Below, piece by piece: positions 3,369-37,361 of a stretch of DNA of 57,497 bases (position 1 is its first letter; each line of letters starts with the position of its first letter). The translations under genes and the position numbers were made by a program. The notes under the pieces are model-generated. The model did no database searches. It worked only from the letters and a program-made list of their open reading frames with translations, and was not told where the DNA came from. Source of the stretch: Candidatus Peribacteria bacterium (GTDB lineage Bacteria; Patescibacteriota; Gracilibacteria; Peribacterales; Peribacteraceae); the NCBI GenBank assembly GCA_023245935.1, contig JAHFJM010000004.1, forward strand, positions 77,924 through 135,420. The letters run 5' to 3'.

Positions 3369-3441
3369 TCTGTCTCTGCGTGTTTGATTTTTCAAACCTA
3401 TGAGCGGATACTTTCAAATAGATTCCCCTCCATCCAAAAAC

Positions 3442-4389
3442 ATGCAGAAACCAATTGCAGTTCTTACAGCCGTCACGATGCTCGGCGTTGCCGTTCTCGT
3501 TGTCACTCAGCAATTTGGATTTCAACTTCCTTCGGGGGGACATTTGAGGGGGGCTACCGTATCGACAAGTTCCACAACGGGCCCTTATTGCTGTGCAATT
3601 TTCCCCCTTTCCCCACCAACATTGCCGTTAAGCGCCGTTACTTTCTGCATTCAAAGAAGCACCGGGGGGGGTGACAATTGCGCCACGTTCACCAGTAACC
3701 ACCCGACAAACACATGCGATGGTCAGTGCAATACGCTCAACCCTGCGGGCTATGCATGCTCTCCTTCTTCGTCTCCTTCCAACTGCACTGCGGGTGATAT
3801 TTCATGCAATAGAAGCATCTGCAAGTCTCTTTCTCAAAATATGGGACAATGCACGTATCCTGTACTGCCAAGTACTTGTGTCACAAGCAGCGCAGGATCT
3901 GCAAATCCATTGTCTCTTCCTCAATGTCAAAATCCTGCCGTCAATTGCGATTGGAGCAAGTGTAGAAATCGTACAACAGGAGTCTGTACATGCAGAACTG
4001 TTGCTTTTGGAGCTCTCAATCCCTGTGGAAGTGACGATACTCTCAATACCTATGGCAACAGCTCTCTCTGCAATGCCGATACGGCTTGCCCTCCTCCCGT
4101 CTCTTCGGCTCCTCCGCCTCCTTCATGCATTCCCTTTGCCCTCGGCTGCAGTGTAAATGCGCTCACTCCCTATACCTCAACAACACCCTGCTGCGATGAT
4201 GGAAACAATGAATGCCGGAGATTTGGAAACCCTCCTATTTCTCCGAATCCTGACAATAGACCGTACCAGTGCAGACTGAAATCTTCCACTTCTACTTCCG
4301 CTTCAGCACCTCCAACAATAGCGCCTTCAGCAGCTATGAAAAAAAAGACAAGTGTCTCTTCTGCCGCTTTCGTACGATCATCTCGCTAG
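3442..4389 (+). CDS. Cys-rich secreted or anchored protein, copy 1
   Basis: The start is placed at MQKPIAVLTAVTM because the second copy begins at the equivalent MQKFLAVVIGLVM; an ATG at 3400 would add 14 residues. Residues 5-22 form a hydrophobic signal or anchor segment. The rest (316 residues in all) is rich in Ser, Thr, Pro and Asn and holds about 26 cysteines, including CC pairs (YCC, PCCDD), which suggests a disulfide-bonded extracytoplasmic protein. Its C terminus is Ser/Thr/Ala-rich and basic. No domain is recognised. It is paralogous to the gene at 4563 and was probably duplicated with part of folD. Confidence 0.75.
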   Translation: MQKPIAVLTAVTMLGVAVLVVTQQFGFQLPSGGHLRGATVSTSSTTGPYCCAIFPLSPPTLPLSAVTFCIQRSTGGGDNCATFTSNHPTNTCDGQCNTLNPAGYACSPSSSPSNCTAGDISCNRSICKSLSQNMGQCTYPVLPSTCVTSSAGSANPLSLPQCQNPAVNCDWSKCRNRTTGVCTCRTVAFGALNPCGSDDTLNTYGNSSLCNADTACPPPVSSAPPPPSCIPFALGCSVNALTPYTSTTPCCDDGNNECRRFGNPPISPNPDNRPYQCRLKSSTSTSASAPPTIAPSAAMKKKTSVSSAAFVRSSR

Positions 4390-4562: not shown

Positions 4563-5651
4563 ATGCAGAAGTTTCTTGCGGTCGTGATTGGACTTGTGAT
4601 GTTCGTGGCAGCGGGAGTTGTGGTGCAGCAAAAGATAGGAGGGGAGCTGGGATCGGATACCACGATACGGGGTCTTCTGAAGCCACCTACTATTATCAAG
4701 ACATCAAAGTCTCCGGCTGTTAAGGCGCCTGCGGCAACGGCTTCGACTACATATTGCTGCCAGGCTGGAACGTGCATGCCGCATACGACAGGAATGATAT
4801 GTGGTGCGACTTATAATAATGATCCAACATGCAACAATAGTTGTGGGAACGTAGCCTACTGTTGTGTCGGAACTACATGCAAACAAGCAATACCATTAAT
4901 GACGCCAGCGTGTAACACTGCTCCTGCTCCAACGTATTCTGGTACAAGTCCGACATGTGGAGGTCCTGCGGCATGCAATCCGACCACGAAACGATGCACC
5001 ACTGCGGGAGATGATTTATGCCAATGTGTCACAAGTCCTGCAAACTGCCCTGCAGGGTACAATACTGCTCAAACCTATACGGGCGCAGCCGGTGCGACGC
5101 AATGTTCAATGGACTGTAAGTGTAAATTGCCTCTTTCGTGCAACAATCCCAATCCTCCAATCAATGGATGCATCACCGGTACCAGTATCGGAAGAATGGA
5201 TTGCTCCTCTCAAAATCGGTGTTGTACACCTACATCAGCTATCACGTGTGCGTCACTTGGCAAGTCATGTATTGCTTCAGATAACTGTATGACCGGTACA
5301 GTTGATACAACTGTGACCTGTCCGAGCGCTCTTCAGTCTTGTTGTATGCCTGAGCCACCACAACCTGCTTGTACCGGAAGATGCGATACTGCTTGCACGG
5401 CAACAGAAACCAATAATGCGCTTACAAACTGTGGTTCTCTTAATCCGGGTCCTCCCAGGAAAGATCGTTGTTGCACGTCTGCTCCGACTGGATATCAACA
5501 ATGCAAAAAGCCTTCAGGAACTGCACCGACCTGTTTTTGTGTGAGCACCGCAAGTACTACAGTCTGTGCAGGAGCGACAACACGTCCTAAACCTCCTTGG
5601 CATGACACTACCATTTTCCCAACCCTTCTACAGTGTCAGAATGCCTGCTGA
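4563..5651 (+). CDS. Cys-rich secreted or anchored protein, copy 2
   Basis: A 362-residue paralogue of the product at 3442. It has a similar N-terminal hydrophobic segment (FLAVVIGLVMFVAAGVVV) followed by about 42 cysteines. Recurrent CC motifs (TYCCQAGTC, AYCCVGTTC, NRCCTP, QSCCMP, DRCCTS) suggest several small disulfide-stabilised repeats. The leader shares TGAGCGGATACTTTT and the following pyrimidine-rich stretch with copy 1, which marks the 5' edge of the duplicated unit. The function is unknown; a surface structural or adhesive role is speculative. folD follows after 69 bases. Confidence 0.8.
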   Translation: MQKFLAVVIGLVMFVAAGVVVQQKIGGELGSDTTIRGLLKPPTIIKTSKSPAVKAPAATASTTYCCQAGTCMPHTTGMICGATYNNDPTCNNSCGNVAYCCVGTTCKQAIPLMTPACNTAPAPTYSGTSPTCGGPAACNPTTKRCTTAGDDLCQCVTSPANCPAGYNTAQTYTGAAGATQCSMDCKCKLPLSCNNPNPPINGCITGTSIGRMDCSSQNRCCTPTSAITCASLGKSCIASDNCMTGTVDTTVTCPSALQSCCMPEPPQPACTGRCDTACTATETNNALTNCGSLNPGPPRKDRCCTSAPTGYQQCKKPSGTAPTCFCVSTASTTVCAGATTRPKPPWHDTTIFPTLLQCQNAC

Positions 5652-32737: not shown

Positions 32738-33064
32738 ATGAAACATTCCTATTCTTTCTTCGGCAAGAAATCCCTGCGCACGATTGCCATCGTCGGAAGC
32801 AGCATGACGGTTGCGTTCATCCTCGGTGTTCGCACTGCGGGTGACGTACAGCCGGTCGTCGGTGAGACGCGTGCGGGCGGCGCCGTCATTCTCGGTGATC
32901 TGAATGGAAACGGCATCGTGGATATCGATGATGCGAAGAAAGCTCTGGAACTCGTGAAGGGTCTGCGAACCCCTCTCCCGCAGGAACTGGCTGCCGATCC
33001 CGATCAGAACTTCACGATCACGATCGATGACGTACTTTCCATCCTCAACTCGATCAAGAAATAA
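32738..33064 (+). CDS. Exported dockerin-like protein
   Basis: A 108-residue protein with an N-terminal hydrophobic segment (IAIVGSSMTVAFILGV, about 16-31) and a dockerin type I-like module: GDLNGNGIVDIDDAKKALELVKG and a second, weaker copy, ADPDQNFTITIDDVLSILNSI. The DxNxNGxVDxxD loop is a typical calcium site; the second copy keeps only some ligands. TATAAT (32724-32729) is eight bases before the ATG. The next gene encodes a cohesin-like protein, its natural binding partner. Confidence 0.8.
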   Translation: MKHSYSFFGKKSLRTIAIVGSSMTVAFILGVRTAGDVQPVVGETRAGGAVILGDLNGNGIVDIDDAKKALELVKGLRTPLPQELAADPDQNFTITIDDVLSILNSIKK

Positions 33065-33099: not shown

Positions 33100-34380
33100 A
33101 TGAAGTCCCCTCGACTCACATCAATTCTTGCAACCAGCGTCCTCTCTGTTCTTGCGTTTTCGCGGATGGCACTGGCACAAGACAGCAATCCCATCGGACT
33201 CGTGCTCGAGCCGCACTGTGCGAACGAGGATCGAACGCACTGCCCCGTGTTCGATGTGCTGAATCCAACGCATCTTTCGACCAACGTTCTGGAAGTCGGT
33301 GACATTCTCGATGTCGACGTCGTCCTCCTGAATGGAATGAAGACGGGAATCAAGACGATCCAGAGCTGGCTTTCGTACGATCCCGAGAGTTTGGAAGTTC
33401 GCAGTGTCAGCCTGACGCCCGTTCTCGCAAAACCGACCCCGGGAGAGCAGAAGGCAGATCCGACACTCAAGATCATCAAGATCGGCGGTGACACGGGCGA
33501 CATCAAAACGAACAGAGTGTCCATCGCTCGCATCACATTCCGCGTGAAGGAAACAGGAAAAAACAATCTCCTCTCGTTCGATAACTTCCGCGAGGATGGC
33601 ATGGGGCAGACATCCGTACGAGGGGACTCCGTTCTTCATGACACGAACGGGGGGCTTGGCGAGGTTCCCTGTTTTGCGGGAATGGTTTGCAGAAAAGATC
33701 TGGTTTCACTGCTGCAGACCGAGCCGAGTGCGCTTGCGGTTCTCGTTGCGGGAATGAAGAAAGCGGCAAACGATCTGGTTTTCCCTCCGGCAGCATCTCT
33801 GCAAAGTTCTGCGGCAATGCCGATCACGCCTGTCAGCCAACCTGCTGAGACGAATCCGGTGCAGGCGAACACTGCATCGTCCTTCGGGCTGCTGCAGGTG
33901 CAGAATGTGCGCGTCACATCCAGAGACAGCAGTATTTTCCTCGGATGGCAGCCGCTGCAGAGCAGTGCGCTTGCCGGATACAACGTCTACTACGGCACCG
34001 TCAGCGGCAGGTACATCCAGAGACGCTCGGTTCCGGCAAACACGTCCAGTCTGGTGATTCGCGATCTGGAACCGGGAACAATGTACTTTTTCGCAGTGCG
34101 AGGGTACGACGCAAATGATCTGGAAACGGTCTTCAGTCAGGAAGTTTCCGTCACCGTCGGCAGCCCGGAAAGTTCGTCTGCACCACTGGTCGGAGGGATT
34201 CCGGATGTGCAGACCGCTCCTCAAAATTTGATCAAGAGTCGCGGCGGAACGGAGGTCAACGGAACGACCGGCACAAGCGACACTCTCATTGTCTTTGCCG
34301 TTCTCTGCGCCTTCATCGGAACCGCATTTGCCGCACACAGGCAATATGCTCTGTTGCGTCCCCTTCCTTATGTCAGATAA
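33100..34380 (+). CDS. Cohesin-like plus fibronectin III surface protein
   Basis: 426 residues: signal peptide (1-26, ending RMALA), a cohesin-like beta domain (about 60-175, VGDILDVDVVLLNGMK, SWLSYDPESLEV, ISIARITFRV-like strand), a low-complexity linker, one Fn3 domain (about 262-352, VRVTSRDSSIFLGW, YNVYYGT, LEPGTMYFFAVRGYD) and a C-terminal membrane helix (about 393-412) with a basic tail. It probably sits on the cell surface and may bind the dockerin-like protein encoded 35 bases upstream. It overlaps the next gene by 11 bases. Confidence 0.82.
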   Translation: MKSPRLTSILATSVLSVLAFSRMALAQDSNPIGLVLEPHCANEDRTHCPVFDVLNPTHLSTNVLEVGDILDVDVVLLNGMKTGIKTIQSWLSYDPESLEVRSVSLTPVLAKPTPGEQKADPTLKIIKIGGDTGDIKTNRVSIARITFRVKETGKNNLLSFDNFREDGMGQTSVRGDSVLHDTNGGLGEVPCFAGMVCRKDLVSLLQTEPSALAVLVAGMKKAANDLVFPPAASLQSSAAMPITPVSQPAETNPVQANTASSFGLLQVQNVRVTSRDSSIFLGWQPLQSSALAGYNVYYGTVSGRYIQRRSVPANTSSLVIRDLEPGTMYFFAVRGYDANDLETVFSQEVSVTVGSPESSSAPLVGGIPDVQTAPQNLIKSRGGTEVNGTTGTSDTLIVFAVLCAFIGTAFAAHRQYALLRPLPYVR

Positions 34381-36758: not shown

Positions 36759-36844
36759 TGGTGGGCCGGGCTGGATTCGAACCAGCGAAGGCATAAGCCG
36801 TCAGATTTACAGTCTGATGCGTTTGTCCACTTCGCTACCGACCC
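36759..36844 (-). tRNA. tRNA-Tyr (anticodon GUA)
   Basis: Acceptor GGGTCGG pairs with CCGGCCC (one G-U pair), the discriminator is A and CCA is encoded. The anticodon loop CTGTAAA gives GTA, and the long variable arm fits bacterial tRNA-Tyr. Confidence 0.97.
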
Positions 36845-37036: not shown

Positions 37037-37065
37037 AGTGTACCACTCCCCTATCCGGTTGTCAA
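37037..37065 (-). promoter_or_regulatory. Promoter of the small RNA
   Basis: On the minus strand, TTGACA (37060-37065), 17-base spacer ending in TGG, TACACT (37037-37042). The -35 is perfect and the -10 carries an upstream TG. It is divergent from the histone-fold gene. Confidence 0.8.
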
Positions 37066-37084: not shown

Positions 37085-37113
37085 TTGTGCTCGTAAGGGG
37101 TCTTCTCTAGAAT
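37085..37113 (+). promoter_or_regulatory. Promoter of the histone-fold gene
   Basis: TTGTGC (37085-37090), 17 bases, TAGAAT (37108-37113). The leader to the ATG would be about 25 bases, with no Shine-Dalgarno sequence. Confidence 0.45.
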
Positions 37114-37145
37114 CCCGTCCATCTACTTCTTCCCCTTTTATTCCC

Positions 37146-37310
37146 ATGATCGTTCAATCACACGTCAAGGAAACTCTCTCGAAGATGGGTCTTCGCTGCG
37201 GTGGCGACTTCTGCGATGCCCTCGCCAAGGAGTGCGAGAACCTCGTCAAGAAGGCTGCAATGCGCTGCAAGGAGAACAAGCGCCAGACAGTCTACGGATG
37301 TGACTGCTAA
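37146..37310 (+). CDS. Small DUF1931-like histone-fold protein
   Basis: The 54 residues follow the DUF1931/bacterial histone pattern: a first helix (VQSHVKETLSKMG), a loop, a long second helix (FCDALAKECENLVKKAAMRC) and the loop signature KRQTVYGCD, equivalent to the R-T...D motif of histones. It should dimerise and may bind DNA. It ends right after that motif, so there is little or no third helix. Six Cys (18, 23, 30, 41, 52, 54) are very unusual and could bind metal or form disulfides. It has its own promoter and terminator. The assignment rests on pattern only. Confidence 0.7.
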   Translation: MIVQSHVKETLSKMGLRCGGDFCDALAKECENLVKKAAMRCKENKRQTVYGCDC

Positions 37311-37322
37311 TTAATTGAAATA

Positions 37323-37361
37323 AAAAAGGTCATCTCTGTCGAAAGGCAGGATGACCTTTTT
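37323..37361 (+). terminator. Intrinsic terminator after the histone-fold gene
   Basis: AAAAAGGTCATC (37323-37334) pairs with GATGACCTTTTT (37350-37361), so the stem ends in a U-run. It may work in both directions. Confidence 0.9.

Follow-up and report, generated by a model that had tools for sequence, protein, structure and literature searches.

A probable face-to-face histone with a lineage-specific set of six cysteines in Candidatus Peribacteria

A short gene of a freshwater Peribacterium (host assembly of 1.2 Mb, 99% complete) was found to encode a 54-residue protein with cysteines at positions 18, 23, 30, 41, 52, and 54 (MIVQSHVKETLSKMGLRCGGDFCDALAKECENLVKKAAMRCKENKRQTVYGCDC, the translation of the forward-strand ORF 37146-37310). 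Coordinates refer to the window, by which we mean the whole stretch of DNA that was analyzed (57,497 nt). Judged from sequence profiles, the protein is almost certainly a histone and very probably a member of the FtF (face-to-face) alpha3 class. The explanation that we favor as a whole, at a probability of about 0.6, is that of an FtF histone which exists beside HU, forms tetramers, and has recruited cysteines. We regard the protein as a real case of an under-annotated FtF histone with an unusual, lineage-specific Cys set; standard family models miss it, and the family-wide presence of such a histone in Peribacteria, alongside HU, widens the known range of the class.

Gene call, histone identity, and class

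The gene is genuine and under purifying selection, as all six cysteines are kept in eight Candidatus Peribacteria genomes (that of the window and seven others) with pairwise dN/dS values of 0.02-0.18 among the six-Cys orthologues. The seven further orthologues are 89-98% identical to the window protein, those with names come from Candidatus Peribacteria MAGs, and the Cys codons of the set show two synonymous TGC/TGT differences. The six cysteines in 54 residues reported by an earlier, sequence-only reading of this DNA were confirmed by the translation and by these orthologues. Protein similarity starts at the ATG at 37146 in all orthologues. A longer ORF from a GTG at 37038 was considered and rejected as the true gene: with a conserved -10 box situated 38 nt before the ATG, the GTG start would precede the promoter.

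When the single sequence was searched against the PDB, HTkC (E-value 0.0012) and HLp (E-value 0.0044) were retrieved, and a family profile built from 16 relatives matched HLp at 8e-17, HTkC at 2.9e-13, and HBb at 3e-11. An AF2 monomer run on a shallow alignment predicted helices at residues 2-13 and 20-43, bearing out the helix-loop-long-helix fold that had been proposed from the letters; its confidence was middling (pLDDT 69.8, pTM 0.44), with residues 47-54 and the short alpha3 below 50. Foldseek returned HLp as the top solved structure (probability 0.89, with a weak E-value of 0.15). VIA-align Z scores were middling and unspecific; therefore, the sequence profiles were relied upon. Pfam and NCBIfam gave no histone match for the window protein, none to PF09123 (DUF1931) was listed at E-values up to 10, and the PHROGs alignment scan yielded nothing useful. 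Alignment scans gave weak histone matches only, for other family members, with some relatives weakly matching DUF1931, and the viral_contigs search gave one chance match, inside an unrelated ORF (L106). The sequence-only reading had assigned a DUF1931-like histone fold and sought a DUF1931 profile match. The fold stood, on the PDB profiles, AF2, and the Foldseek match to HLp, whereas the label did not: Pfam and NCBIfam gave no such match, PDB histones match instead, and the protein is a singlet with an FtF signature. DUF1931 proteins share the histone fold with it but are pseudodimers with two histone folds per chain, a class ruled out by the 54-residue length and the missing PF09123 match.

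The FtF HMM has the signature residues R48, N52, R54, T56, and D61 and an alpha1 lysine at position 16 (PMC11390915). With one constant offset, K16/R48/N52/R54/T56/D61 correspond to K8/R40/N44/R46/T48/D53 of the window protein, and R40, N44, R46, T48, D53, A37, and K8 were invariant across 63 relatives. The class is also marked by the shortening of alpha2 and by an alpha3 just 3-4 residues long, in keeping with the two predicted helices and with a chain that stops one residue past D53, and by significant similarity to solved FtF histones, which the family profile showed for HLp and HTkC. Among the other classes considered, HMf-like archaeal nucleosomal histones have an alpha3 of ~10 residues and a longer alpha2; the present chain ends after one possible turn, and the family profile matched HMfA at an E-value of 0.0057 with partial coverage. 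ZZ histones carry an N-terminal ZZ zinc finger, and no extra domain is present within the 54 residues. Neither of these two classes applies here.

Two further accounts were weighed on this evidence. One takes the product for a small peptide of the zinc-ribbon or metallothionein kind with no relation to histones, which would agree with six cysteines in 54 residues and with a weak Pfam match to a C2HC zinc finger (E-value 0.22); the clear PDB histone matches and the retention of the sequence pattern in near relatives without Cys make it exceedingly improbable. The other supposes a histone-fold protein that stays dimeric and bends DNA like HBb or regulates locally, with no wrapping tetramer. HBb (Bd0055), a bacterial dimer histone (PDB 8FVX, 8CMP), has the same alpha3-truncated fold and is a significant profile match, but HLp and HTkC outscore it, and bacterial dimer histones lack R48/N52 (PMC11390915), the residues whose equivalents R40 and N44 are both invariant here. 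We therefore judge a purely dimeric protein improbable and reject the HBb-like class. With the R48/N52 equivalents present and DUF1931 proteins being pseudodimers, neither the dimer nor the DUF1931 label fits, and assignment to the FtF class is retained.

Table 1. Features of the histone locus, in window coordinates
Feature	Position	Strand	Basis
tRNA-Tyr(GTA), upstream neighbor	36759..36844	-	Kept in most six-Cys loci
-35 element TTGTGC, 17-nt spacer	37085..37090	+	Family footprint TTGC...TAGAAT/TACAAT
-10 element TAGAAT, 38 nt before ATG	37108..37113	+	Family footprint
Pyrimidine-rich leader without Shine-Dalgarno motif	37121..37145	+	88% C+T over 25 nt
Six-cysteine histone gene, probable FtF type, 54 residues	37146..37310	+	Stop codon included
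Predicted helix alpha1, residues 2-13; K8 is the conserved alpha1 lysine (FtF HMM position 16)	37149..37184	+	AF2; K8 invariant in 63 relatives
Predicted loop L1, residues 14-19; C18 at the HLp DNA-contact T27 position	37185..37202	+	AF2; PMC12701072
Predicted helix alpha2, residues 20-43; C23, C30, C41, FtF tetramer residue R40	37203..37274	+	AF2; HLp mapping
N44, loop L2 with R46-x-T48-x4-D53, truncated alpha3; C52 and C54 where HLp has its tetramer-interface residues T61 and F63	37275..37307	+	FtF signature; HLp mapping
Intrinsic terminator hairpin ending in T run	37323..37361	+	-24.1 kcal/mol, z -6.7

Expression signals, distribution, and coexistence with HU

The histone gene forms a single-gene transcription unit (Table 1). 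A consensus promoter/terminator scan missed both its promoter and its terminator, as the -35 element is weak and the hairpin lies outside the scan rules; these elements were called by conservation footprint and folding. A -10-like hexamer was found 5' of the ATG in 67 of 69 relatives, mostly 34-41 nt away and in most of them TAGAAT or TACAAT, with a TTGC-type element ~16-18 nt further 5' in most relatives. A hairpin followed by a T run stands at the equivalent place in most relatives. The promoter and terminator that the sequence-only reading had ascribed to the gene are both supported (conserved -35/-10 footprint; hairpin z -6.7). An A run on the other side of the terminator would permit bidirectional action. 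The GC3 of the histone gene is 0.74, compared with at most 0.72 for other window ORFs, and together with the single-gene unit this is consistent with good expression.

The histone leaders of relatives are ~85% pyrimidine, and an SD-like motif was found in none of the 69. Leaders of this pyrimidine-rich, SD-less kind were also observed upstream of many other window ORFs, whereas strong SD sites of the AAGGAGGTG type precede the histone genes in other families of Patescibacteria (L087-L096); this contrast between Peribacteria and other Patescibacteria suggests a different mode of translation start. Of the seven six-Cys loci that were scanned, five retain the tRNA-Tyr neighbor; among the remaining two, the sequence of L007 stops 48 nt before the gene, and no such tRNA is seen in L003. 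Downstream, the convergent genes form a MacB/FtsX-type ABC export operon with no evident link to the histone. Also in the window, 33100-34380 (+) encodes a protein in which cohesin and fibronectin type III domains are combined, and the adjoining 32738-33064 (+) a product with a dockerin-looking stretch, DLNGNGIVDIDDAKKALELVKG; the two are a possible cohesin-dockerin pair in Peribacteria.

A relative of the histone was detected in 68 of the 74 genomes of the family (f1), counting that of the window. Outside f1, only two genomes of family f5 matched well in a class-level search, and a phylum-wide sample added families f25, f32, and f62. Among the f1 genomes in which no histone was detected (G016, G029, G034, G036, G053, and G067), G029 consists of one contig, is 98% complete, and may represent a true loss. 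Histone doublets with two FtF-type folds per ORF (~120 aa) were observed at L072 (G019), L081 (G003), L082 (G031), and L071 (G077); these are a natural single-chain dimer, in three of which R40 is lost from the first half and retained in the second. HU, which the sequence-only reading had proposed to look for, is encoded in 136 of 144 related genomes including the host; thus, the histone adds to HU without replacing it and is not the sole packaging protein. Searches of the open-licence literature turned up no account of histones in Peribacteria or Patescibacteria, and two broad surveys of prokaryotic histones leave Patescibacteria unmentioned in their main texts.

The six cysteines and their origin

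At the Cys fraction of 1.4% obtained from 48 mechanically chosen window ORFs of at least 100 aa, the probability of six or more Cys in 54 residues is ~1.3e-4. Among other Peribacteria, singlets carry 0-4 Cys, and the number in 31 archaeal relatives is 0-2, upholding the earlier claim of an unusually high Cys content for a histone; Cys is reported to be under-represented in archaeal histones (PMC13260811). Two adjacent predicted proteins of the window, 3400-4389 and 4563-5651 (+), have 26 Cys in 329 residues and 42 in 362, respectively, with an N-terminal hydrophobic segment and no Pfam match, and have the appearance of secreted proteins rich in disulfides.

The six-Cys form arose once, and the proteins that have it group as a single clade (88/89 support), next to three genomes sharing only C52 and C54. 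Thirteen positions that are fixed in the clade differ from both nearest relatives; four of these are changes to Cys (P = 1.0e-5, 2.8e-5, and 4.7e-4 at Cys frequencies of 1.1%, 1.45%, and 3%, respectively), and another is a new His at position 6. The Cys gain in this lineage is thereby shown to be non-random. The invariance of the cysteines within the clade is not special, since 46 of the 54 positions are invariant anyway. C23 is always accompanied by C18 (Peribacteria and archaeal sets) and C54 by C52 (Peribacteria set). Carriers of the C18+C23 pair were seen among Aenigmatarchaeota, in the genome G009, and within the six-Cys clade. When Cys co-occurrence was tested on the tree, the independent events were too few for significance. 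FtF-type histones with a paired C-x4-C at L1 and the alpha2 start were also noted at L010, L011, L013, L107, L108, L110, L113, and L118, from Aenigmatarchaeota and the same phylum sample.

HLp was aligned by profile without gaps (offset 9 in the numbering of its paper), and its residues T27/V32/L39/T50/T61/F63 correspond to C18/C23/C30/C41/C52/C54. In HLp, the tetramer joint brings R49, S52, and N53 together with F63', T61', and R55' of the opposing dimer. M26 and S28 make contact with T56' and V58' from the partner chain, the dimer core includes L39, and DNA is contacted by T27 and G29 (PMC12701072). Because the ungapped alignment pairs these residues, (i) C52 and C54 map to positions of the dimer-dimer (tetramer) interface; (ii) C41 maps next to interface residue R40; (iii) C30 maps to the dimer core, where it would replace a core Leu/Val; and (iv) C18 maps to the DNA-contact position in L1. 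The earlier placement of the cysteines at loops held for C18 in L1 and not for C23, which AF2 puts on the first turn of helix 2, with C30 and C41 within that helix. Residues at the N' and N4 positions of a helix normally touch (hydrophobic staple). With alpha2 starting at residue 20, as modeled, C18 would be N' and C23 N4, and we infer that the two may be expected to touch.

Proposed assembly, thiol chemistry, and comparison with known histones

FtF histones form tetramers, and HLp wraps ~60 bp of DNA. By analogy with HLp and HTkC, two chains of the window protein would form a crossed-helix histone dimer, two dimers would join into a ring-shaped tetramer via R40, N44, R46, and the C-terminus, and DNA would wrap this ring via K8, the alpha1 start, L1, and T48. 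In this lineage, cysteines have been recruited to L1 (C18), the alpha2 start (C23), the dimer core (C30), a site beside R40 (C41), and the dimer-dimer interface (C52 and C54). Their thiolates could bind a metal, either zinc or copper(I), or the cysteines could form reversible disulfides that bridge the L1/L2' and dimer-dimer joints. Such thiols would reinforce the tetramer or render DNA wrapping sensitive to metal or redox conditions. It is the mapped residue positions that make metal or redox control, which the sequence-only reading had called possible, plausible; we hold this mechanism tentatively, at somewhat less than an even chance. As the lineage-specific cysteines map to interface sites and to a DNA contact, this protein would allow a cheap, concrete test for a metal- or redox-gated histone ring, and metal or redox gating of a histone is the question raised for eukaryotic H3 C110.

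The main rival view is that of a plain FtF histone whose cysteines are neutral or serve packing, as small and semi-hydrophobic replacements for Ala/Thr/Val/Leu, with no metal or redox role. The residues found at the Cys positions in relatives, mostly A, T, S, V, or L, agree with this, as do the coming and going of single cysteines (C52 alone in many relatives, C38 in others) and the few independent origins of Cys pairs; C30 in particular may be plain packing. However, four changes to Cys among 13 fixed changes are improbable by chance, the cysteines sit at mapped DNA-contact and interface positions, and the C18+C23 pair is also present in Aenigmatarchaeota and G009, so that we place this account appreciably short of even odds. 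A full metallo- or redox-switched histone, in which the thiolates of C18/C23 of one chain and C41/C52/C54 of its neighbors would build metal sites or disulfides at the ring joints and wrapping would be metal- or redox-dependent, appears less likely than not. An FtF histone beside HU with recruited cysteines remains our preferred reading.

The closest known system by profile and Foldseek is HLp, the tetrameric FtF histone of Leptospira perolatii (PDB 9QT0-9QT2; PMC12701072), which shares the histone-fold core, the RxxxNxRxTxxxxD C-terminus, and an end one residue after the clamp Asp. HLp differs in having an N-terminal tail and none of the six Cys, and Leptospira lacks HU whereas the window genome encodes it. 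HTkC, the archaeal FtF histone of Thermococcus kodakarensis (PDB 9F2C; PMC11390915), represents the same class and is the best single-sequence match, but it is archaeal and its aligned stretch lacks Cys. In the eukaryotic H3-H4 tetramer, C110 of H3 plays a part in the binding and reduction of copper by that histone (PMC11988410). That assembly is different and has one Cys only. Both systems have thiols in or close to the interface of a histone tetramer, and an alignment on the RxT motif would place H3 C110 one residue from C41.
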